Positions 2 to 13,582 of a stretch of DNA of 17,539 bases are shown here, one piece after another (the stretch's first letter is position 1; the number at the start of each line of letters is the position of its first letter). Both the position numbers and the translations under genes were made by a program. The notes beneath the pieces are model-generated. The model saw nothing but the letters and a program-made list of their open reading frames with translations. It had not been told where the DNA came from and ran no database searches. The stretch lies in contig JANXMO010000415.1 of the NCBI GenBank assembly GCA_025354615.1, positions 1 to 17,539 on the forward strand, given 5' to 3'. This stretch comes from Burkholderiales bacterium. Lineage in GTDB: Bacteria; Pseudomonadota; Gammaproteobacteria; Burkholderiales; Burkholderiaceae_C.

Positions 2-286
2 CGGGCGCCGTCGTCTACCCCCAAGAAGGTCAAGAACAGAGACGAGGCAAGTTACTCATTCGGCTTTCTTGTTACCGGCTATTCGCCGGAATCGATCCAG
101 AAGGCGCAGGAGCGCTGCAGAAAACTTCGGGAAGTTTGGGATGAAGCGAATTGGATGAAAAGGGCTCAGCCCCAGCGAATCAGAACAAAAGCATACGAAA
201 CGCAGGCGGGTGCCGACACATGTGCAGAGCTTGCACGCAAGGCTGGATGGCTGTGCGTTGAGATCAAAGAGGTGCTCAAAGCATGA
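2..286 (+). CDS. Unrecognised phage protein, 5'-truncated by window edge
   Basis: A frame is open from base 2 to the TGA at 284-286, giving the last 94 residues of a protein whose start lies outside the window. It is basic, rich in Lys, Arg, Glu and Gln, with a helical middle (SIQKAQERCRKLREVWDEAN). The C-terminus, ADTCAELARKAGWLCVEIKEVLKA, reads as another amphipathic helix. I see no known motif. The case for it being real is the uninterrupted frame to the window edge and the exact ATGA overlap (283-286) with the next small gene, the junction style of the whole operon downstream. The function is unknown; by position it belongs to the early replication-type operon. Confidence 0.6.
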   Translation, partial: RAPSSTPKKVKNRDEASYSFGFLVTGYSPESIQKAQERCRKLREVWDEANWMKRAQPQRIRTKAYETQAGADTCAELARKAGWLCVEIKEVLKA

Positions 287-3552: not shown

Positions 3553-3830
3553 ACAAAGCCAATTAAAGCACTGCGTCGGGGGACATGGTTTAACCACGGC
3601 GGCGCAGGAAGACCCCTTTACCGTGGGAAAGACGAGGAAGCAAAGGGAATGGGTGGCGAAGCTAGCGCCCATGCGTCGAACGGCTGGCGAGTCATGGGTG
3701 CGACGGGTGTCGGATTTGTGTAAAGGACTCAGGATGGGCTGAGTCCGTCTGCTCGGGGTGTGGGATGGGGGTAGACAGGTGAAAGTAATAAGGAATACGG
3801 GTTAAACATCTTGAATGGGGTAACTACGTC
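3553..3830 (+). other. Gap between toprim and DUF1064 genes; hairpin inside
   Basis: About 280 bases with no convincing gene in an operon otherwise packed with 4-nt overlaps. It contains a perfect 8-bp inverted repeat, GGACTCAG (3725-3732) and CTGAGTCC (3739-3746), with a 6-nt loop; no T-run follows, so it is not a standard terminator. The segment 3745-3800 is purine-rich. A basic 39-codon frame (GTG 3623 to TGA 3740-3742) and an open stretch in the toprim frame after its TAG (to TAA 3721-3723) exist but lack support. No good sigma70 promoter was found. It could hold a structured RNA, a replication-related site or a decayed gene. Confidence 0.5.
3725..3746 (+). repeat. Perfect 8-bp inverted repeat (stem-loop)
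   Basis: GGACTCAG, loop GATGGG, CTGAGTCC. It lies in the only long gap of the early operon, 85 bases upstream of the TTG start of the DUF1064 gene. Lacking a U-tract it is unlikely to terminate alone; it could be a protein-binding palindrome, an RNA-processing site or a stabilising 3' structure for the upstream message. Confidence 0.5.
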
Positions 3831-4163: not shown

Positions 4164-4615
4164 AACTCACCGCCACCCTTTTCAATGCCCAGCAAGGGCA
4201 CACAGAGCTGATGCGCATTTGGCACAGCGCCAAAGCAATGCTGATAGCTGGCCACCGAATGAGCCTCACGCTTGCAAAACAGACCCGCAGCGTGGAGCAA
4301 AACGCCATGTTGTGGTCAGTGCTGGGGGATATCGCAAGTCAAGTGGAATGGCACGTTGACGGCCGCGCACAGAAGCTCAGCGGAGAAGACTGGAAGGACA
4401 TTCTGAGCGCCGGCCTGGCGAAGCATCAGCGCGTTGCGGCGGGGATTGAAGGCGGGTTTGTGATGCTCGGGCAGCGCACGTCAAAGATGACGATTGCAGA
4501 CATGTCGGAGCTGATAACGCTGGGCCATGCCTTCGGCGATGAGCGCGGCGTCAAGTGGTCGCGGACTAGTTTGGGCCGGGATTTTCCGGATGAATACTTT
4601 GAGGATGCCGCATGA
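4160..4615 (+). CDS. ninB: NinB recombination protein
   Basis: At 151 aa it is close to lambda NinB (about 146 aa). It shares the family signature in order: RSVEQN with LW..LGDI (44-58), QVEWH (61-65), the EDWK segment (76-79), GFVMLGQRTSKM (99-110) and AFGDERGVKW (124-133). Lambda NinB (Orf) binds single-stranded DNA and SSB and helps strand-annealing recombination, standing in for RecFOR. Here it is flanked by a DUF1064 nuclease and a YbcO-like protein, as in lambdoid nin regions. Both ends are ATGA overlaps. The family assignment is firm; function is carried over from lambda. Confidence 0.93.
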   Translation: MKLTATLFNAQQGHTELMRIWHSAKAMLIAGHRMSLTLAKQTRSVEQNAMLWSVLGDIASQVEWHVDGRAQKLSGEDWKDILSAGLAKHQRVAAGIEGGFVMLGQRTSKMTIADMSELITLGHAFGDERGVKWSRTSLGRDFPDEYFEDAA

Positions 4616-4770
4616 AATCGATCGCATCGGGCTTGTTAAGCATATTCGTGACGGGGATGCTGTTGGCCGGTCCGGCTTACTTAATCGGTGGAGTTGAATG
4701 GCTTCAAGGCTCGCTCTTTACATACGGGACTTTGATGCTTCTCATTCTTGGCGAGAAATTGGGCGAATGA
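4612..4770 (+). CDS. Small double-spanning membrane protein (52 aa)
   Basis: ATG 4612 to TGA 4768-4770. The protein is hydrophobic with one Lys at position 2 and short polar ends: a first membrane segment at about 5-25 (IASGLLSIFVTGMLLAGPAY), a short GGVEW turn, and a second at about 33-47 ending in GEKLGE. The first segment is rich in small residues; no clear signal-peptidase site. It is real by context: its start overlaps the ninB stop (ATGA) and its stop overlaps the next start (ATGA). Small hairpin membrane proteins in phages include holins, superinfection-exclusion proteins and membrane anchors. The location in a recombination cassette, far from any visible lysis gene, gives no clear hint. 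No family recognised. Confidence 0.75.
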   Translation: MKSIASGLLSIFVTGMLLAGPAYLIGGVEWLQGSLFTYGTLMLLILGEKLGE

Positions 4771-5075
4771 TGGCCTCATTCTTTAAAGAAAATTATCACC
4801 ATAGCGAGCCCTGGCGCCGCGCTGTTGCAAGCCTGCCCTGTGTTCTATGCGGCCGCCACGGGGAAACGCAATGCGCGCACCGCAACGAAGGCAAGGCCAT
4901 GGGCAAAAAACTGATGGATGACGTGTGGACGGCAGCGCTGTGCGTCACGTGTCACTCAGACATCGACCAAGGGCGAGAAATGAGCCGAGAGGAACGGCGA
5001 GAGCGAATGGACAAGGCGATTTTGCTGACAGTGCGCGAGCTAGCGCGGGCGGGACTTTTGGAGATCAAGCGATGA
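4767..5075 (+). CDS. YbcO/DUF1364-like HNH-type nuclease
   Basis: Start set at ATG 4767, which overlaps the upstream stop as ATGA, giving 102 aa; the longer in-frame version from 4698 would overlap most of the membrane-protein gene. Metal-site residues are C25xxC28, the AH pair at 37-38, and CxxCH at 59-63 followed by SDIDQ, the pattern of the E. coli YbcO (DUF1364) family found in lambdoid prophages. These are small zinc-containing HNH/His-Me-finger-like proteins thought to cut DNA and often occupying the slot of Holliday-junction resolvases such as RusA or NinG. That fits its place after NinB. The C-terminal helix (73-102) is charged. Nuclease activity is inferred. Confidence 0.82.
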   Translation: MMASFFKENYHHSEPWRRAVASLPCVLCGRHGETQCAHRNEGKAMGKKLMDDVWTAALCVTCHSDIDQGREMSREERRERMDKAILLTVRELARAGLLEIKR

Positions 5076-5434
5076 GCCGAGGAATGTTCAACTTTTTTGG
5101 ACGCTGCGACTATCCGCAGCCACAGCCGGCGCCGATGTACGAAATCAAACCGCCGCCGTATCTGCCTATGCCAATGTCGCCCAACACAACCACAACAGTA
5201 ACCACAACCGCGCCGGAAGTCCGAGAACAGCCGCCACCAAGTCAAAACGAGCTGCCCGCTGTGTGGGACTTGGTACTGCAAGACATGGCAGCACGCGACA
5301 AGCTGGGCCAAGAGCGCTACGGCACACGACTGCAGCCGCACAACGGGCGGGACATGCTGCGCGATGCACTGGAAGAGGCCTTAGACATGGTTGTTTACCT
5401 GCGCGGGGCGATTTATGAAAGGGATGGGAAATGA
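5072..5434 (+). CDS. Phage protein with Pro/Thr-rich linker and MazG-like C-terminus
   Basis: Start chosen at ATG 5072 (ATGA overlap), giving 120 aa. A short N-terminus with FNFFGRCDYP is followed by a low-complexity Pro, Thr and Val region (15-58, with a TTTTVTTT run), then a compact helical domain (62-118) containing RYGTRLQPHNGRD and EEALDMVVYLRGA. That domain resembles many small phage proteins described as MazG-like, where the EE..D helix binds magnesium in nucleotide pyrophosphohydrolases; only part of the usual set is seen. It might cleave nucleoside triphosphates or be a non-catalytic relative. The flexible linker suggests tethering to a partner through the N-terminal segment. Family call from memory, moderate. 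Confidence 0.7.
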   Translation: MSRGMFNFFGRCDYPQPQPAPMYEIKPPPYLPMPMSPNTTTTVTTTAPEVREQPPPSQNELPAVWDLVLQDMAARDKLGQERYGTRLQPHNGRDMLRDALEEALDMVVYLRGAIYERDGK

Positions 5435-5676
5435 CTTGCCCCCAATGCGCCATCGCAGAAACAGAAATTCGCAGCCCGCTTTTTAAGTCAAACTGCGATA
5501 ACTGCGCCGCCAGACTGCTTGCACAAGGGCTCGCAGCTTGGCGCGCAATCAACGCCCGCACTGGTGTTGACCTGCAGTCAGAAATAGAGAAGATATGGGG
5601 CGTGGAGCGCTACGCGGAGGGGCGCAGGGCAGTTTGGGGCTGGATGCAGCGGCTGGATATCGGGAAGACGGTTTGA
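5431..5676 (+). CDS. Small zinc-ribbon protein (81 aa)
   Basis: ATG at 5431 overlaps the previous stop (ATGA). Cysteines at C3xxC6 and C22xxC25 form a zinc-ribbon pair near the N-terminus, followed by a helical Ala/Trp/Arg-rich part (AWRAINA, IEKIWGVERYAEGRRAVWGWMQRL). No family recognised. It is the last gene of the rightward operon and converges on the leftward cassette with only 20 bases between the stops. A DNA- or RNA-binding accessory role is plausible but unproven. Confidence 0.7.
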   Translation: MTCPQCAIAETEIRSPLFKSNCDNCAARLLAQGLAAWRAINARTGVDLQSEIEKIWGVERYAEGRRAVWGWMQRLDIGKTV

Positions 5677-5696
5677 CTTTCTCTATCGCCCAAAAT

Positions 5697-5951
5697 CTAT
5701 CGTACAAATTGATTTATATGCCCAAAATTGTCTGATAGTCGGCACCCCGGATGCTGATCAGTCGCAAGTAAAAACAGCGCCCAGCGCGCCGGGTCGATGT
5801 TGCGCCGCCCGGACTCAATGAGCCACCACGAGTTTCGACCCCGCAAGCCGGCCAGCAGCGCCGCTTGCTCTTGAGTCATGTCAATCGCGGTGCGGGCGAG
5901 CGTGACTGCCGCAGCCGTGGGTTCGGGAAGGCCGGCGAATGGATTGATCAC
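5697..5951 (-). CDS. XRE-like helix-turn-helix protein
   Basis: An 84-aa protein whose residues about 18-70 read as an XRE/Cro-type helix-turn-helix: ARTAIDMTQEQAALLAGL, then a recognition-helix region with NSWWLIESGRRNIDPARWALFLLATDQHP. The 'ESGRR.I.PA.W.LFLL.T.QHP' ending is common in small phage and prophage HTH proteins of beta- and gamma-proteobacteria. It starts at GTG 5951, overlapping the upstream stop as GTGA, and is the last gene of the leftward operon. It may repress its own promoter near 7296-7324, or act elsewhere as a Cro-like switch protein. HTH class is fairly sure; the target is unknown. Confidence 0.75.
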   Translation of the reverse strand: MINPFAGLPEPTAAAVTLARTAIDMTQEQAALLAGLRGRNSWWLIESGRRNIDPARWALFLLATDQHPGCRLSDNFGHINQFVR

Positions 5952-6160
5952 GCTTCGATTTCACGCGAAAAAATTGAACTCATCAGCCGGCCGGCAACGG
6001 ATGCATCTTCAACGCCATCGATACTGCGGTAGTCGCCGAATTCGATAACATATTCTGCGCCGTTCAAGCGCGGTTCCCACATAATTCCATGCCACATTAC
6101 TTTTTCGGCAGATTCTTTTTCGGCCGTTGATGTTACTGTTATCGTAATCATTATGTTCAA
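5948..6160 (-). CDS. Unrecognised small acidic protein (70 aa)
   Basis: The frame runs from TTG 6160, which overlaps the upstream stop as TTGA, or alternatively from ATG 6151 three codons later (67 aa); neither has a clear ribosome site. The N-terminus alternates hydrophobic and Thr residues (ITITVTST), and WHGIMWEPRLNGAEYVIEFGDY suggests a small beta-rich fold. No family recognised. It lies between a 172-aa unknown gene and the HTH gene in the low-GC leftward operon and is probably made from the same message. Confidence 0.6.
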   Translation of the reverse strand: MNIMITITVTSTAEKESAEKVMWHGIMWEPRLNGAEYVIEFGDYRSIDGVEDASVAGRLMSSIFSREIEA

Positions 6161-6675
6161 TCGTTGTAATCGTTTTTCAGTTCCTTGCGAGCTTCTGCGC
6201 GTTTAGTTCTATCTGGGTAAGCCCCGAGCAATATCCGCTCGCGAATATATTCCGGAAAATCATCGTCGATCCGGTAACCGCCCTTTTTTGAGGTATACGC
6301 AATTGCGTCGTCTGCCCTGAAGTTTTGCTCGATCATCCAGCGCACAATTCGGGCGGTATTTTTTGCGTTTTCGCAACCCGCGACACAAGCATATGCTGCG
6401 AATTTTTCTTCAGCGTCATCGGCTTTTGTGTTAACGCCTCTAAACCATTTTATAACTTCACCGTCCGCGTCGTCCTCGACGGGATTTTTGTTTCTCCAAA
6501 AATCACTTTCGGGGTTTAAAAGCAAAGCATCTGCAACGTTTTCGATAGCGCCGTCAATCAGCGCCGCAATGAATGTTTTATCCCCGTCATTATTTTTTTT
6601 GTGTTCAAGCTTCATGAAAGAGTATGGCGCGCGAAGTTGAGTTACTAACTCATCGCGATTTGATGTTTTAATCAT
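6157..6675 (-). CDS. Unrecognised acidic protein (172 aa) of leftward cassette
   Basis: ATG at 6675 overlaps the previous stop by one base (TAATG). The protein is acidic, rich in Asp, Asn, Lys and Ala, with no cysteine motif other than a CVAGC pair near 97-101. The middle (about 35-70) and C-terminal half look mainly helical: EEKFAAYACVAGCENAKN, then ARIVRWMIEQNF, then YIRERILLGAYPDRTKRAEARKEL. No membrane segment or signal peptide. The nucleotide sequence has clear AT-rich tracts and looks nearer 42-45% GC than the flanks, suggesting a separate origin. I cannot assign a family. Being the largest gene of the cassette it is the best candidate for its main activity. Confidence 0.65.
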   Translation of the reverse strand: MIKTSNRDELVTQLRAPYSFMKLEHKKNNDGDKTFIAALIDGAIENVADALLLNPESDFWRNKNPVEDDADGEVIKWFRGVNTKADDAEEKFAAYACVAGCENAKNTARIVRWMIEQNFRADDAIAYTSKKGGYRIDDDFPEYIRERILLGAYPDRTKRAEARKELKNDYND

Positions 6676-6923
6676 TATGTCAATTCCTCGCTTTTCCGGT
6701 AATCTTTGGGTATATGTTTAAGCACTTCCGGCGGCGCGAAAATCATAAAAGCGCCACCCGCCGCAATGGCTTCTGACATTGCTTGTGCTGCCGCCTCCTC
6801 CGGACTTTGCCCAGCTCTATATCCTGATCTTGTCTTTGTTTTATTGCCAAAACCCGGTTTTACAGCAATTTCATAGCCATCGGTATAGCTGCATTTCGTG
6901 ATCGAAATAAGCGTGTGTTTCAT
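6675..6923 (-). CDS. Unrecognised small protein (82 aa)
   Basis: The frame is open from 6989, but I take ATG 6923 as start because the longer form overlaps the upstream gene by about 60 bases while this start lies 7 bases after that gene's stop. It begins MKHTLISITKCSY, then has a Lys/Gly/Thr-rich stretch (KPGFGNKTKTRSGYRAG), an Ala-rich helix (SPEEAAAQAMSEAIAAGGAF) and PPEVLKHIPKDY. A short beta strand, basic loop and helix could bind nucleic acid or protein, but nothing is recognised. The ribosome site before 6923 is weak, which suggests reinitiation after the upstream gene. Confidence 0.6.
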   Translation of the reverse strand: MKHTLISITKCSYTDGYEIAVKPGFGNKTKTRSGYRAGQSPEEAAAQAMSEAIAAGGAFMIFAPPEVLKHIPKDYRKSEELT

Positions 6924-6930
6924 TATTCGA

Positions 6931-7257
6931 TCAAACTGAAGCAACAAGCGTTGTGAACTCGTCTTGTGTTTTTCCAAAAGCTTGCGCATACACGCTCAAA
7001 GCAGAGCCGTGTTGTGCGATGAGCGCGTTCGCAAGCGTGTATTTTTGGGCAGCAGTAACTTTTGCGTATTTGCTTTTCTGAGCGTTGCGAACTGTTTGCG
7101 CAATGCTGTTGATCTTTTCGTCGCTGATCTTGTCTGTCAAAGCCAAGAATTCTGGGTAGCTGACGAGCGATTCGACGGTCTGACGATCGTTCAAAGCCGG
7201 GCCGTGTTGCGGCTGGGTCATGCGCTTGAAAGCTTCTGCTGCGTAGTCGATATGCAT
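6931..7257 (-). CDS. Unrecognised helical protein (108 aa), first gene of leftward cassette
   Basis: ATG 7257 is preceded by a good ribosome site on the minus strand (GGAG seven bases upstream). The protein is largely helical and Gln/Ala-rich. The C-terminal half has KSKYAKVTAAQKYTLANALIAQHG, reminiscent in style of short phage proteins that end with a '.KYGKLT..Q...' segment, but I cannot name a family. No cysteines, membrane segment or signal peptide. As the promoter-proximal gene with the best ribosome site it should be the most highly expressed member, as early-acting phage proteins such as anti-host factors often are; that is inference. Confidence 0.65.
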   Translation of the reverse strand: MHIDYAAEAFKRMTQPQHGPALNDRQTVESLVSYPEFLALTDKISDEKINSIAQTVRNAQKSKYAKVTAAQKYTLANALIAQHGSALSVYAQAFGKTQDEFTTLVASV

Positions 7258-7271
7258 TTTTAATCTCCGCT

Positions 7272-7319
7272 TGCTGTGTTGCTGTCGATGTATGTACTGT
7301 ATGACATAGCAACACAGCA
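7272..7319. promoter_or_regulatory. 12-bp perfect inverted repeat, likely operator
   Basis: TGCTGTGTTGCT (7272-7283) and its exact reverse complement AGCAACACAGCA (7308-7319) are separated by 24 bases, with 36 bp between arm centres. Each arm holds TGCT twice, eight bases apart. One arm fills the -35/-10 spacer of the leftward promoter; the other lies just past its expected start. Such placement suits a repressor that bridges two sites or blocks polymerase. Confidence 0.75.
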
Positions 7320-7324
7320 GTCAA
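7296..7324 (-). promoter_or_regulatory. Leftward sigma70-type promoter
   Basis: On the minus strand, -35 TTGACT (7319-7324) and -10 TACAGT (7296-7301) with exactly 17 bases between. Matches to consensus are 5/6 and 4/6. Transcription would start near 7289, giving a leader of about 30 bases before the ATG at 7257. The inverted repeat at 7272-7319 overlaps it. Confidence 0.7.
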
Positions 7325-7353
7325 GCGGTTTTGCAATCTTTTTTGAAAAAGTT

Positions 7354-7381
7354 TTGCGAAAGTGCAGCCGACAGATATGCT
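7354..7381 (+). promoter_or_regulatory. Possible rightward promoter for the late regulator
   Basis: TTGCGA (7354-7359) and TATGCT (7376-7381) with 16 bases between match consensus 4/6 each. It would start about 25 bases before the TTG at 7413. It is weak, so an activator or read-through transcription may also be needed. Confidence 0.35.
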
Positions 7382-7412: not shown

Positions 7413-7799
7413 TTGAAAAACGACGCACTCGACGAGTTAGCGCTTGATGACATATTGAGCCGTTGGCATGCCTGGGCCTCGTTGTCTACAGATGTGCGCG
7501 GCTATGCTCGGCGCAGCTTAGTGTGCGGCGACTATCGAGTAAGCAGACAGTACGACGACAGTAACGGCGCACTTGATAGCGATTTAGAGTCATCGCGCAT
7601 GAGAGACGTCGATTTTTGCGTGACAGAGATGCAAGAGCCGCATCGATCTGCAATCTATCAAGATGCGCGACGGCTTTGCACCGGTGTCGCTGTGTTTATC
7701 AGTCCGAGACTGCCGGCTGATCGACTTGAGCGCGCGCAGCTTATTGCAGATGCGCGCACGATGATTGCTAAGTCGCTTTACAAAGCTGGGATCATGTAA
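7413..7799 (+). CDS. Probable Q-type late antitermination regulator
   Basis: A 128-aa protein from TTG 7413, with GGGG eight bases upstream. The N-terminus LDDILSRWHAWAS resembles the start of phage-82/DLP12-type antitermination Q proteins (a leading helix with RW.AWA). The later part, VDFCVTEMQEPHRSAIYQDARRLCTGVAVF with the final helix ARTMIAKSLYKAGIM, follows the helical plan of that group. Overall similarity by eye is weak and the usual central HTH is not obvious. The context is stronger: it lies last before packaging, and right behind it are a promoter-like pair (7777-7805) and an intrinsic terminator (7852-7882), as with lambda Q, pR' and tR'. A different late activator is the main alternative. 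Confidence 0.5.
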   Translation: MKNDALDELALDDILSRWHAWASLSTDVRGYARRSLVCGDYRVSRQYDDSNGALDSDLESSRMRDVDFCVTEMQEPHRSAIYQDARRLCTGVAVFISPRLPADRLERAQLIADARTMIAKSLYKAGIM

Positions 7800-9797: not shown

Positions 9798-11906
9798 GTG
9801 ACCGAAGATCAACTGCGCGTCTACATTGAGAATCAGGAGACACGCGCGCGCAGGGAGACCGTAGCCGAGGAGCAGGCCAAGGCCATGCATTACTACCTTG
9901 GGCGCCCGCTGGGCACTGAGGAAGAGGGCCGATCTACCGTCATCAGCTCGGACGTGTGGGACGTAGTTGAAGGCCTGTTGCCCATCGTGCTCAAGCCGTT
10001 TGTGTCGAGTGACGAGGTAGTCAGTTTTAACCCGGTCGGCGCCGAGGACGAAGAAGCCGCAAAGCAGGAAACGGATTACATCAACTTCAAGGTCACGCAG
10101 GAAAACGACGCATTTGAAGTTTTCATGGCCTGGGCCAAAGCCGGGCTGCTGCAGAAAAATGGCGTTGTGAAGTATTGGTGGGAAGACTCCCGCCGCGTGC
10201 AGATTGAGACTTACAAGGGCATTTCTGACGACGTTTATACAGCGTTGATTGCTGACGAAAATGTCCACGTACTTCAGCACACCGAATACCCGGGTCAGGC
10301 CAGCATTGACCAAGCCACGGGCCAGCAGATGCCAGGCGAACCCACTCACGATTTCAAAGTGCGGATCGTCAACAAGGACGGCCAGGTCAAGTACGCGGTG
10401 ATTCCGCCAGAAGAATTGCTTGTGAGTTCTGATGCGCGCAGCCCCGACCCGCGCAAATCGCCATTCCTTCAGCACCGCACGCGCAAGACGATCAGCGCAC
10501 TGCGGGAGATGGGCTACGACGTTGACGATGACATAAGCGACGCGGGGACTGGCAATGCATCGTTTGATATCCAGGCCGCTGCACGCAACATTGACGGGCA
10601 GCAGTTGGGGGACTTTGACGGCGGTGGTGACCCGTCAATGCGCGAAGTGTGGTTTCGCGAAAGTTATTGCTTGGTTGACTATGACGGCGACGGCATTGCA
10701 GAGCGGCGACTAGTCTGCATGGTCGGCACAACGGTGCTGGCGAACGAGGAGATCGAGGAGTGGCCGTTCGCCGGCTGGACACCCTACCCGCAGCTGCACC
10801 AGTTCGACGGCCGTTGCCCGGCTGATGAGACGGTAGAGATTCAAGACGTTAAATCCACACTCTGGAGGCAGTCTCTTGACAACATCTACACGATCAATAA
10901 CAACCGCACGTTTGTCGGCAACAAGGTCAATCTTGACGACATGCTGGACAACCAGATTGCAGGCATTGTCCGAGTCGATGACTCAGTGGTTGGCAATCAA
11001 GCGATGTCGATGCCGATCACCCCCATTGGGCAGGTCGTACAGCCGATGATTGAGTATCTGGACAGCGCCAAGGAAAACCGCACCGGATTTACACGTTATA
11101 ACCAAGGCACTGATGCCAACAGCCTGAATAAAACGGCAACTGGTGTGCGGATCATTGCAGAAGCCGGGAATGAGCGTGTGGGACTTGTGTCCCGTTGCAT
11201 GGCTGAGCAGGGCATGAAGGCGCTGATGGTGGGCATACACGGCCTTTGCCGCCGCCATGCGACCAAGGCTGAGACGATCCGATTGCGGGGCAAGTGGGTG
11301 ACGATAGATCCGCGCTCATGGCAGACGCGCCATGACATGACGGTGAGCGTAGGCCTGGGCACTGCTGATAAGACGATGCAACTGCAAGCGCAGGACAGTA
11401 TTGTAAAAATGCAGGCAGGGCTGACGCAGGCCGGGATTGTTAGCCCGGAAAACATTTACAACGCAGCGTCAAAGTATGCCGAACTGACCGGCGAAAAGAA
11501 CCCTGACAAGTACTTCACGCATCCCGAGAAGATGCCTAAGAAGGAGCCGCCAGACCCTATGCAAGACCCCGAGGTCATGTTTAAGGCCGCTGAGGTCAAG
11601 CAGAAGGACAGGGCGCTTGACCAGCACGACCGTGAGCTTGACCAGGCAGACGCCAAGCTTGGCATCGAGTCGCAGAACGCGCAGGTCGATGCTTTGATGC
11701 GGCACCACGAATTGGAATTGAAAACCGAAATGCACCAGCGCGACATGGCCGCACCGGCGGCCACGCAACTGCAGGCCGAACAGCAGCAGCACAGCATTGG
11801 AATGGACGTGCGCAAGCAGGACGCGGCAGAGCAGGGCCAAGCGCACTCGCAGACCCTGGCTGAGCAGCAGGCGCATCAGCAATCGGAGCAGGAGCCGACC
11901 AAATGA
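9798..11906 (+). CDS. Portal protein (P22-like family)
   Basis: At 702 aa it is close to the P22 portal (725 aa). The N-terminal half has VISSDVWDVVEGLLPIVLKPF and VKYWWEDS; the centre has FDGRCPADETVEIQDVKSTLWRQ, NRTGFTRYNQGTD, LNKTATGVRIIAEAGNER and a tract ending VGLGTADKTMQLQAQ, blocks shared by P22-type portals. The last 130 residues are a Gln/Glu/Ala-rich helical barrel tail with HDRELDQADAKLG and many QQ pairs, matching the long P22 barrel. It forms the dodecameric DNA gate at the capsid vertex. The GTG start at 9798 follows the previous stop directly. The stop overlaps the next ATG (ATGA). Confidence 0.93.
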   Translation: MTEDQLRVYIENQETRARRETVAEEQAKAMHYYLGRPLGTEEEGRSTVISSDVWDVVEGLLPIVLKPFVSSDEVVSFNPVGAEDEEAAKQETDYINFKVTQENDAFEVFMAWAKAGLLQKNGVVKYWWEDSRRVQIETYKGISDDVYTALIADENVHVLQHTEYPGQASIDQATGQQMPGEPTHDFKVRIVNKDGQVKYAVIPPEELLVSSDARSPDPRKSPFLQHRTRKTISALREMGYDVDDDISDAGTGNASFDIQAAARNIDGQQLGDFDGGGDPSMREVWFRESYCLVDYDGDGIAERRLVCMVGTTVLANEEIEEWPFAGWTPYPQLHQFDGRCPADETVEIQDVKSTLWRQSLDNIYTINNNRTFVGNKVNLDDMLDNQIAGIVRVDDSVVGNQAMSMPITPIGQVVQPMIEYLDSAKENRTGFTRYNQGTDANSLNKTATGVRIIAEAGNERVGLVSRCMAEQGMKALMVGIHGLCRRHATKAETIRLRGKWVTIDPRSWQTRHDMTVSVGLGTADKTMQLQAQDSIVKMQAGLTQAGIVSPENIYNAASKYAELTGEKNPDKYFTHPEKMPKKEPPDPMQDPEVMFKAAEVKQKDRALDQHDRELDQADAKLGIESQNAQVDALMRHHELELKTEMHQRDMAAPAATQLQAEQQQHSIGMDVRKQDAAEQGQAHSQTLAEQQAHQQSEQEPTK

Positions 11907-12352
11907 CTGTTATCGCATGGGACGGGATCACGCTTGCTGCTGACAAGCGAGCTTGTTTGGGAGCCATGGTTGGCACAGTAACGAAGATCCGCCGCATTGG
12001 TGATTTGATCGTCGGCGGCGCTGGCGAACCGGCTTTTATTGGCGCAATGATGGCGTGGATTGAAGGCGGACGGGATCAAGAAACTTTCCCAAAGCAACAG
12101 CAAGACAAAGACGACTGGTCGCCAATCCTGGTAATCGAGCCGGACGGCACCCCATCAATTTATGAGCGGACAGCATTCCCTGTTCGGAACGAGCAAAAGC
12201 ACATTGCAATTGGCTCTGGCCGAGAGTTCGCGAGAGCAGCTATGTACCTTGGTTGCGACGCCCGAAAAGCCGTAGAAGTTGCGATTGCGCTGGACTGTGG
12301 TTGCGGCAACGGTATTGACACACTCACCATGGCACCAGATGGACAGCCTTGA
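11903..12352 (+). CDS. HslV/proteasome-beta-like Ntn-hydrolase
   Basis: A 149-aa protein that aligns by eye with HslV and proteasome beta subunits: Thr2 exposed after Met removal (MTVIAWDG), Asp14 in LAADKRA (HslV Asp17 position), Lys28 in TVTKIRRIGD (HslV Lys33 position, which sits in KKVRRL), a glycine-rich VGGAGEPAF, and IAIGSGREFARAAM at 101-114 matching HslV IAIGSGGPYAQAAA. So all main catalytic residues of an N-terminal threonine peptidase are present. The ending LDCGCGNGIDTLTM recurs in phage homologues. Placed between portal and scaffold, it is a candidate prohead protease or virion quality-control enzyme. No HslU-like ATPase is nearby. Fold call is strong; substrate unknown. Confidence 0.85.
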   Translation: MTVIAWDGITLAADKRACLGAMVGTVTKIRRIGDLIVGGAGEPAFIGAMMAWIEGGRDQETFPKQQQDKDDWSPILVIEPDGTPSIYERTAFPVRNEQKHIAIGSGREFARAAMYLGCDARKAVEVAIALDCGCGNGIDTLTMAPDGQP

Positions 12353-12638: not shown

Positions 12639-13582
12639 CAAACGCAATTGAGTCGCAGACCCCGACTGGCCAAGAAGCAGAAACGCCGACCTTGGACACG
12701 GGCAGCGATGATGAGGCGATCAACGCGCTCATGAAGAGCGAACCCGAGGCCGATGAAGCCACGGAAACACCAGCCGACGAGACCGAAGACGGCGCAGACG
12801 CGGAACCCGATAACGGGGAAACCGACGAAGCGGACGAACCTGCGGAGAAGCTCGCCGAGGTGGAGTACGAGGGCAAGACTTATCAAGTCCCGCCCGGGCT
12901 GGAAAAAGCCGTCCTGCGACAAGCTGACTATTCACGAAAGATGAATGAAGTCGGGGCAAAGGAAAAGGAATACACCCAACGGATTGAAACCGCTGACAAG
13001 CTGATTGAAGGCGCTGAAAGCTACGCCAAGTCACTGGCCGAGCTGTCAATACTGGATGCGCAGATTAAGGAGTTCGAGGGTGTTGATTTCGATCAACTCG
13101 AAAGCACTGACCCCGGGAAAGCCTCTTTGCTGGCCTTAAAGCTCATGCGACTGCAGAACGCACGGGACAAGACAGAGCGCAACTCCAAGCAAATCGATGC
13201 GGAGATCAATGCCAGCCGCTCGCAACAAGTAGCGGCAAAGCGCGAGGCAATGCTTAAAACGCTTGCCAAAGATGTGCCGAACTGGGGCGATGAGTTGGGG
13301 ACAAAGATCACCCAATACGCCGTTTCAAGCGGCTACAGCATCGACGAAATCAGCGCGGTGACAGATCCGAAGTGGGTAGTTGCTATGGACAAGGCGCGCA
13401 AATTCGACGCCATTCAGGATGGCAAAAAAGACGCCAAGTCCAAGGCAAAAGATGCACCCCCCGTAGCGAAGCCAGGCGCCAAGCGCGCGTCCGTGAATGC
13501 GGCTGCCGACTCGATGGCCCGGCTTCGTCAAACCAATTCAACAGAGGATGCCGAGCGCGCTCTGTTGGCAAGAATGAAATGA
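12635..13582 (+). CDS. Capsid scaffolding protein
   Basis: A 315-aa protein just upstream of the coat gene. It has a very acidic disordered N-terminus (about 15-75, rich in Glu, Asp, Ala and Thr), VEYEGKTYQVPPGLEKAVLRQADYSRKM in the following segment, long helical coiled-coil regions (about 105-205), and a basic C-terminus (about 265-315, KKDAKSKAKDA and KPGAKRAS). Scaffolds characteristically have an acidic front, helical rod and basic coat-binding tail. They guide procapsid assembly and leave or are digested. The start overlaps the previous stop (ATGA). Position plus composition make the call good; sequence similarity to named scaffolds was not checkable. Confidence 0.82.
   Translation: MTNAIESQTPTGQEAETPTLDTGSDDEAINALMKSEPEADEATETPADETEDGADAEPDNGETDEADEPAEKLAEVEYEGKTYQVPPGLEKAVLRQADYSRKMNEVGAKEKEYTQRIETADKLIEGAESYAKSLAELSILDAQIKEFEGVDFDQLESTDPGKASLLALKLMRLQNARDKTERNSKQIDAEINASRSQQVAAKREAMLKTLAKDVPNWGDELGTKITQYAVSSGYSIDEISAVTDPKWVVAMDKARKFDAIQDGKKDAKSKAKDAPPVAKPGAKRASVNAAADSMARLRQTNSTEDAERALLARMK

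Follow-up and report, generated by a model that had tools for sequence, protein, structure and literature searches.

The stretch of DNA considered here ('the window') is a complete contig of 17,539 bp (G000:C360) from the metagenome-assembled genome (MAG) of a Burkholderiales bacterium; the MAG comprises 2.8 Mb in 697 contigs and is 81% complete. Judging from its gene content, the window is phage DNA. It encodes an SU10-type portal (607 bits), a major capsid protein (260 bits), a Terminase_3 protein, NinB, a helicase and a Toprim protein, and its terminase has matches of ∼53% to Pseudomonas phages such as JBD90, H66 and LKA5, and of 69% to one contig in IMG/VR. Our subject is a cassette of five small genes at 5697–7257, flanked on both sides by phage genes, that is probably an anti-CRISPR (Acr) operon of the acr–aca kind.

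Organization and control of the cassette

The five open reading frames (ORFs) point leftward, between rightward early genes that end at 5676 and a rightward gene that begins at 7413 (Table 1). They are closely packed: a 7-nt gap separates the first and second (6931/6923), a 1-nt overlap joins the second and third (6675), and 4-nt overlaps join the rest (6160/6157 and 5951/5948). The first-pass annotation of this DNA had described five small leftward genes with these junctions, and a count of 25 G/C in 6541–6600; our check of the ORFs and of the sequence agrees in every particular. The annotated start of the fourth gene is a TTG, and the real start may be the ATG at 6151. That annotation also called the whole cassette poor in G+C, and here only part of its description stands. 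The four genes nearest the promoter, which range from 45 to 50%, and the promoter itself are low, and the last gene, at 59.6%, is not. Positions 5952–7260 have a G+C content of 46.5%, versus 56.1% for the window, and no stretch of equal length clear of the block, sampled in steps of 10 bases, falls below 54.3%.

Table 1. Features of the cassette and associated sites in the window
Feature	Coordinates	Strand	Description
First gene, o108	6931..7257	-	108 aa; candidate Acr or anti-defence protein
Second gene, o82	6675..6923	-	82 aa; remote AcrIF5 relative, candidate type I-F anti-CRISPR
Third gene, o172	6157..6675	-	172 aa, isoelectric point (pI) 5.1; candidate new Acr
Fourth gene, o70	5948..6160	-	70 aa (67 aa from ATG 6151), pI 4.5, no family; candidate new Acr
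Last gene	5697..5951	-	84-aa helix-turn-helix (HTH) protein, Aca10-like; likely operon repressor
Promoter, TTGACT-17 nt-TACAGT	7296..7324 (7324-7296)	-	Upstream of first gene; consensus match only
Inverted-repeat arm, TGCTGTGTTGCT	7272..7283	.	Downstream of −10 hexamer of leftward promoter; likely operator half
Inverted-repeat arm, AGCAACACAGCA	7308..7319	.	Between −35 and −10, touching −35 hexamer; likely operator half
Right-flank gene, g128	7413..7799	+	128 aa; in relatives, its homologues come immediately after other rightward ORFs
Protospacer	13139..13170	-	30/32 match to spacer of the MAG's type I-F array; 5′ flank TC

A regulated promoter of its own, and an HTH gene in last position, had likewise been proposed for the cassette, and both were recovered: the former as a promoter-like TTGACT-17-TACAGT site with its 12-nt arms, the latter as the ORF at 5697..5951. 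Promoter-like sites are no commoner in this region than expected by chance (2 found versus 2.8 expected). The arms of the inverted repeat, TGCTGTGTTGCT and AGCAACACAGCA, are perfect; they flank the −10 hexamer, with a spacer of 24 nt between them, and form the only perfect 12-nt inverted repeat in the window with a spacer of 40 nt or less. The repeat lies over the promoter, at a place to which an operon repressor would be expected to bind.

Relatives of the cassette proteins

The HTH protein has a single match in the PDB at E-values up to 10, namely 7xi5 (E 5.6e-5), the structure of Aca10. Aca10 is a repressor that binds the promoter of an anti-CRISPR operon, acrIC7–acrIC6–aca10 of Pseudomonas citronellolis (PMC9410881). 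Among the DNA-binding residues of Aca10 named in that paper, Q22 and R44 align with Q27 and R50 of the window protein; R34 and Q37 are replaced, as would suit a different DNA site. Like the cassette, the P. citronellolis operon ends in its aca gene and has an inverted repeat over the promoter; it differs in its partner genes, and in the arms of the repeat, which in the window are 12 nt long and 24 nt apart. The Pfam family HTH_31 matches the window protein only below its cut-off, and searches of the phages collection and of IMG/VR found no relatives. Phages often encode HTH proteins of this general type, and for that reason we call this one 'Aca-like'. It is likely the repressor of the operon.

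The second protein, o82, resembles the type I-F anti-CRISPR AcrIF5 over its full length. Twenty-five of 77 positions are identical, and none of 20,000 shuffled sequences reached the same score. The E-value is 1.3e-5 within a panel of 34 proteins, and only 0.069 PDB-wide. In that panel, nothing matched the cassette proteins below E 0.01 except AcrIF5, for o82, and the o108 family. A poor, single-sequence structural model of o82 also had AcrIF5 as its best match, a weak one. Searches of the phages collection, IMG/VR and plasmids found no relatives of o82, and among 399 genomes of the family it finds only itself; we dismissed as chance its matches to two PHROGs without a known function (E 0.0054 and 0.038). 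We regard o82 as a candidate type I-F anti-CRISPR, remotely related to AcrIF5 along its whole length. AcrIF5 itself blocks the recruitment of Cas2/3 to the DNA-bound Csy complex (PMC13131331, PMC13381967).

AcrIF5 is encoded in a comparable setting in Pseudomonas phage JBD5 (NC_020202, 18396–19594), in the order AcrE1–AcrF3–AcrIF5–HTH; gp36 of this phage is identical to the AcrIF5 of the PDB over residues 5–76. Both loci consist of a row of small genes that includes an AcrIF5-type gene and ends with an HTH gene. Unlike the window cassette, the JBD5 row, whose genes are anti-CRISPR genes, runs in the same direction as the flanking head genes and has different partners, and its HTH protein is not close to that of the window (E 0.02 in the panel).

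The first protein, o108, belongs to a family whose members, in the panel, are similar down to E 2.9e-24. One relative (39%) occurs in a genome taken to be Azohydromonas lata (G051). The same locus recurs in an IMG/VR contig (L103), where the gene is identical, and in an A. lata record (L123); a second phage locus, on IMG/VR contig L102, has another. At both loci the o108 relative lies directly upstream of a homologue of AcrIF24 (E 2.7e-63 to PDB 7xi1; 37% identity to AcrIF24 of LESphi3), and 10-nt palindromes lie upstream. The acrIF23–acrIF24 operon of Pseudomonas aeruginosa prophages such as LESphi3 likewise has an upstream palindrome, with 8-bp half-sites (PMC9638941). The o108 family, then, occupies the position of AcrIF23 before AcrIF24 at two loci. 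That operon and the window cassette have in common an inverted-repeat promoter, a small first gene and an HTH-bearing last gene; they differ in that the cassette has no AcrIF24, and that neither o108 nor o172 is similar to AcrIF23. Identification of either protein as AcrIF23 was rejected on this account.

Units resembling CRISPR repeats lie beside both AcrIF24 homologues, and match Rfam CRISPR-DR4 at 30–33 bits, just under the gathering score of 35. Solitary repeats of this kind were located at L099:43–67 and 90–115 (-) and at L102:7360–7387 (-), set 46–47 nt apart in rows, and are candidate RNA anti-CRISPRs. Such solitary repeats, or Racr elements, have been reported near acr genes (PMC10651486); in the window, no CRISPR-like repeats were found.

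Members of the o108 family also occur on plasmids of Delftia and Pectobacterium (five records, with 63% of the query covered). At each of the three plasmid loci inspected, a vWA gene lies nearby, and the family thus extends beyond acr loci. The plasmid genes lie at L124:4857–5216, L125:4875–5213 and L126:4875–5213, and the second of these is near a gene for an ArdK-family regulator. The o108 and vWA genes together form a possible anti-defence module. Just before the o108 relative on L125 is a gene (4348–4878) that matches AcrIF23 weakly (E 0.0013, 10 bits), and with which o172 scores E 0.012 in the panel. Other searches with o108 were unproductive. A single-sequence search of IMG/VR found no relatives, and the phages collection returned only three records, at E 0.6 to 1. 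We rejected MamY (E 0.012) as a chance match, and also the best PDB match of three family members, a vacuolar sorting protein (E 0.077). Two weak matches of an alignment (A1; E 0.004 and 0.008) were dropped because they fell inside long open frames of 879 and 650 aa. From these relationships, o108 is a candidate Acr or anti-defence protein.

The third and fourth proteins, both acidic, are candidate anti-CRISPRs by virtue of the operon in which they lie. For o172, no relatives were found in IMG/VR (five pattern stretches), plasmids or GTDB contigs (90 stretches); a search of 199 genomes returned only o172 itself, and the phages collection two matches at E 3. Its structural model has a pLDDT of 45, and a match to late blight R1 (E 0.15) was rejected as chance. 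For o70, searched for in profile libraries, the PDB and small protein panels, no relative was found.

The CRISPR system of the same assembly

The MAG encodes type I-F CRISPR–Cas components. On contig C661, a Cas1 gene scores 506.9 bits against the type I-F model TIGR03637, and a cas3f gene adjoins it; the latter's 525.4 bits are under the full-length cut-off of 565.95 because only the N-terminal 438 residues were scanned. At the end of a second contig, C70, is a type I-F array with six readable spacers. This array (11792–12095; L121) has a degenerate last repeat and includes one spacer interval of just 23 nt. One spacer matches the window phage at 30 of 32 positions (Table 1). Each of the remaining spacers mismatches at 8 or more positions (11 or more if it is 32 nt long), and each of 300 shuffles of the matching one does so at 10 or more. 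The mismatched guide positions, 6 and 30, are both every-sixth positions; in type I-F systems, the guide–target duplex has every sixth base flipped out (PMC7305327).

The binning and the matching spacer are the grounds for assigning the phage contig and the array to one organism, and the organism represented by the MAG would then be the host of the phage. By the grouping we used, the MAG is of the same family as the A. lata genome, in the order Burkholderiales. Csy3 is present in 11 of the 149 genomes searched, a set that includes the MAG; the A. lata genome is among the 11, and has it twice.

Function of the cassette and alternative explanations

The cassette displays what is characteristic of acr–aca operons: co-directional small genes that, by their anatomy, form one transcription unit on a mobile element; an HTH (Aca-like) gene within the operon; an inverted repeat overlapping its promoter; a homologue of a verified anti-CRISPR, in o82; and, in the same MAG, type I-F genes, an array and a matching spacer. 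Type I-F CRISPR–Cas is the indicated target, because of the AcrIF5-like o82, the Aca10-like last gene, the linkage of the o108 family with AcrIF24, and the matching spacer. We put the probability that this is an anti-CRISPR operon against type I-F systems at roughly 0.8, the activity itself being inferred. The same evidence, together with the array, supports the proposal of the first-pass annotation that this is an accessory module such as one for anti-defence.

Expression, repression and inhibition might proceed as follows. On entry of the phage, or induction of a lysogen, the leftward promoter would yield a burst of the four small proteins. The AcrIF5-like protein would act on the DNA-bound Csy complex, block recruitment of Cas2/3, and so spare the phage, and the 108-, 172- and 70-aa proteins probably contribute additional activities against CRISPR or other defenses. 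The last product, the HTH protein, would bind the inverted repeat over the promoter and shut the operon down.

Several results weigh against this reading. None of the four genes other than the HTH gene was matched convincingly in Pfam, PHROGs, NCBIfam or PADLOC (the best was E 0.0054, for o82). Foldseek, with the poor model of o82, returned nothing significant. tblastn of o82 against the phages collection, which includes JBD5 with its AcrIF5, found none at E 10, and it is for this reason that we call the relationship remote; no intermediates between the two proteins were found. The best new match of an alignment (A4; E 1.5e-4) was dropped, being antisense within an unrelated locus, and E-values of that size can evidently arise by chance; a second (E 0.0076) was dropped as well. 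The palindromic site of Aca10 comprises two 10-bp half-sites 1 bp apart (PMC9410881); the window repeat, with its 24-nt spacer, does not conform, and hence we term the protein Aca-like, and not Aca10. Of the Csy proteins, Csy1 and Csy3 were looked for in the MAG, and neither was found; since cas3f reaches the end of its contig, and the MAG is incomplete, these genes may be unassembled. The protospacer is flanked by TC instead of CC, the protospacer-adjacent motif of type I-F (PMC7305327), so the spacer match may represent a weakened target. And there is no recognized Acr at the three plasmid loci with the vWA gene.

This last point also favors a broader interpretation, which overlaps with ours rather than excluding it: that the cassette blocks several host defenses, such as restriction and abortive infection, with CRISPR only one part, and that the AcrIF5-like gene is one of a mixed set. 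The ArdK-family regulator on L125 fits this idea, and anti-CRISPR genes are reported to occur in clusters with genes directed against other defenses (PMC7648647). Against it, the phage partners that can be named are type I-F anti-CRISPRs, and the array of the MAG has a spacer against the window phage. We consider it a real possibility, somewhat short of an even chance.

An ordinary regulatory or lysogeny module, in which the HTH protein is a Cro- or repressor-like protein and the small genes are morons with no anti-defence role, is unlikely. A regulatory switch could also take the form of leftward genes, an HTH gene among them, with an operator, set between the early and the late region, and low G+C content would suit any recently acquired moron. 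Against this, the HTH gene occupies the last place of the operon and its sole solved relative is an Aca; o82 resembles AcrIF5; and the other four genes would be left unexplained by a regulator alone. Chance frames in an untranslated, low-G+C insert might be suspected from the lack of a described family for four of the five ORFs, and are ruled highly improbable by the tight, same-direction overlaps and by the existence of relatives for o108 and o82.

The position of the cassette fits a variable accessory site. We fetched 80 loci by similarity to the terminase, of which 48 hold at least 3 kb upstream of the terminase gene and 32 could not fully show the block; none of the 80 matched any of the five cassette proteins, at E 1e-3 or at E 1. 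The block, then, is not universal among relatives, and only its last gene resembles a regulator, the two points on which the first-pass annotation had proposed that an accessory role be judged. Relatives of g128 occur in seven of the 80 loci. One of these has no upstream sequence and two (L054 and L055) are 99.9% identical, and in the five distinct loci left a rightward ORF runs up to, or into, the upstream end of the g128 homologue. These ORFs are mechanical calls rather than annotated genes, and one locus, L073, holds only 260 bases upstream. In L002, whose terminase is the nearest relative (69%), five different small leftward ORFs, picked by script, occupy a comparable place upstream of the terminase (5330–7363, -), and none of them has a Pfam match.

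Systems of this kind are already known; the combination, and its nameless members, had no counterpart in the searches made, which in the literature were by known names only. We give even odds to the proposition that o108, o172 and o70 represent three undescribed anti-CRISPR (or anti-defence) families, with o108 a widespread counter-defence protein of phages, where it is partnered by AcrIF5-like or AcrIF24 proteins, and of plasmids, where it accompanies the vWA module. What was a nameless block of phage genes is now a defined locus, probably an anti-CRISPR one, whose function can be tested; it offers a remote relative of AcrIF5, here in a Burkholderiales setting, and three candidates for new inhibitors. 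With a type I-F spacer against the phage in the same MAG, a single assembly shows both parties to the conflict. Genes of the o108 family could be used as a new marker in the search for anti-defence loci on phages and plasmids.

Two further features of the window were observed outside the cassette. In the early region, 3569–3692 (+) matches the Rfam Betaproteobacteria-1 RNA (RF02932; 84.4 bits, gathering score 49.4). Directly 3′ of the portal gene, 11903–12352 (+) has a partial match to a proteasome subunit (PF00227; 25.2 bits, cut-off 22.4).
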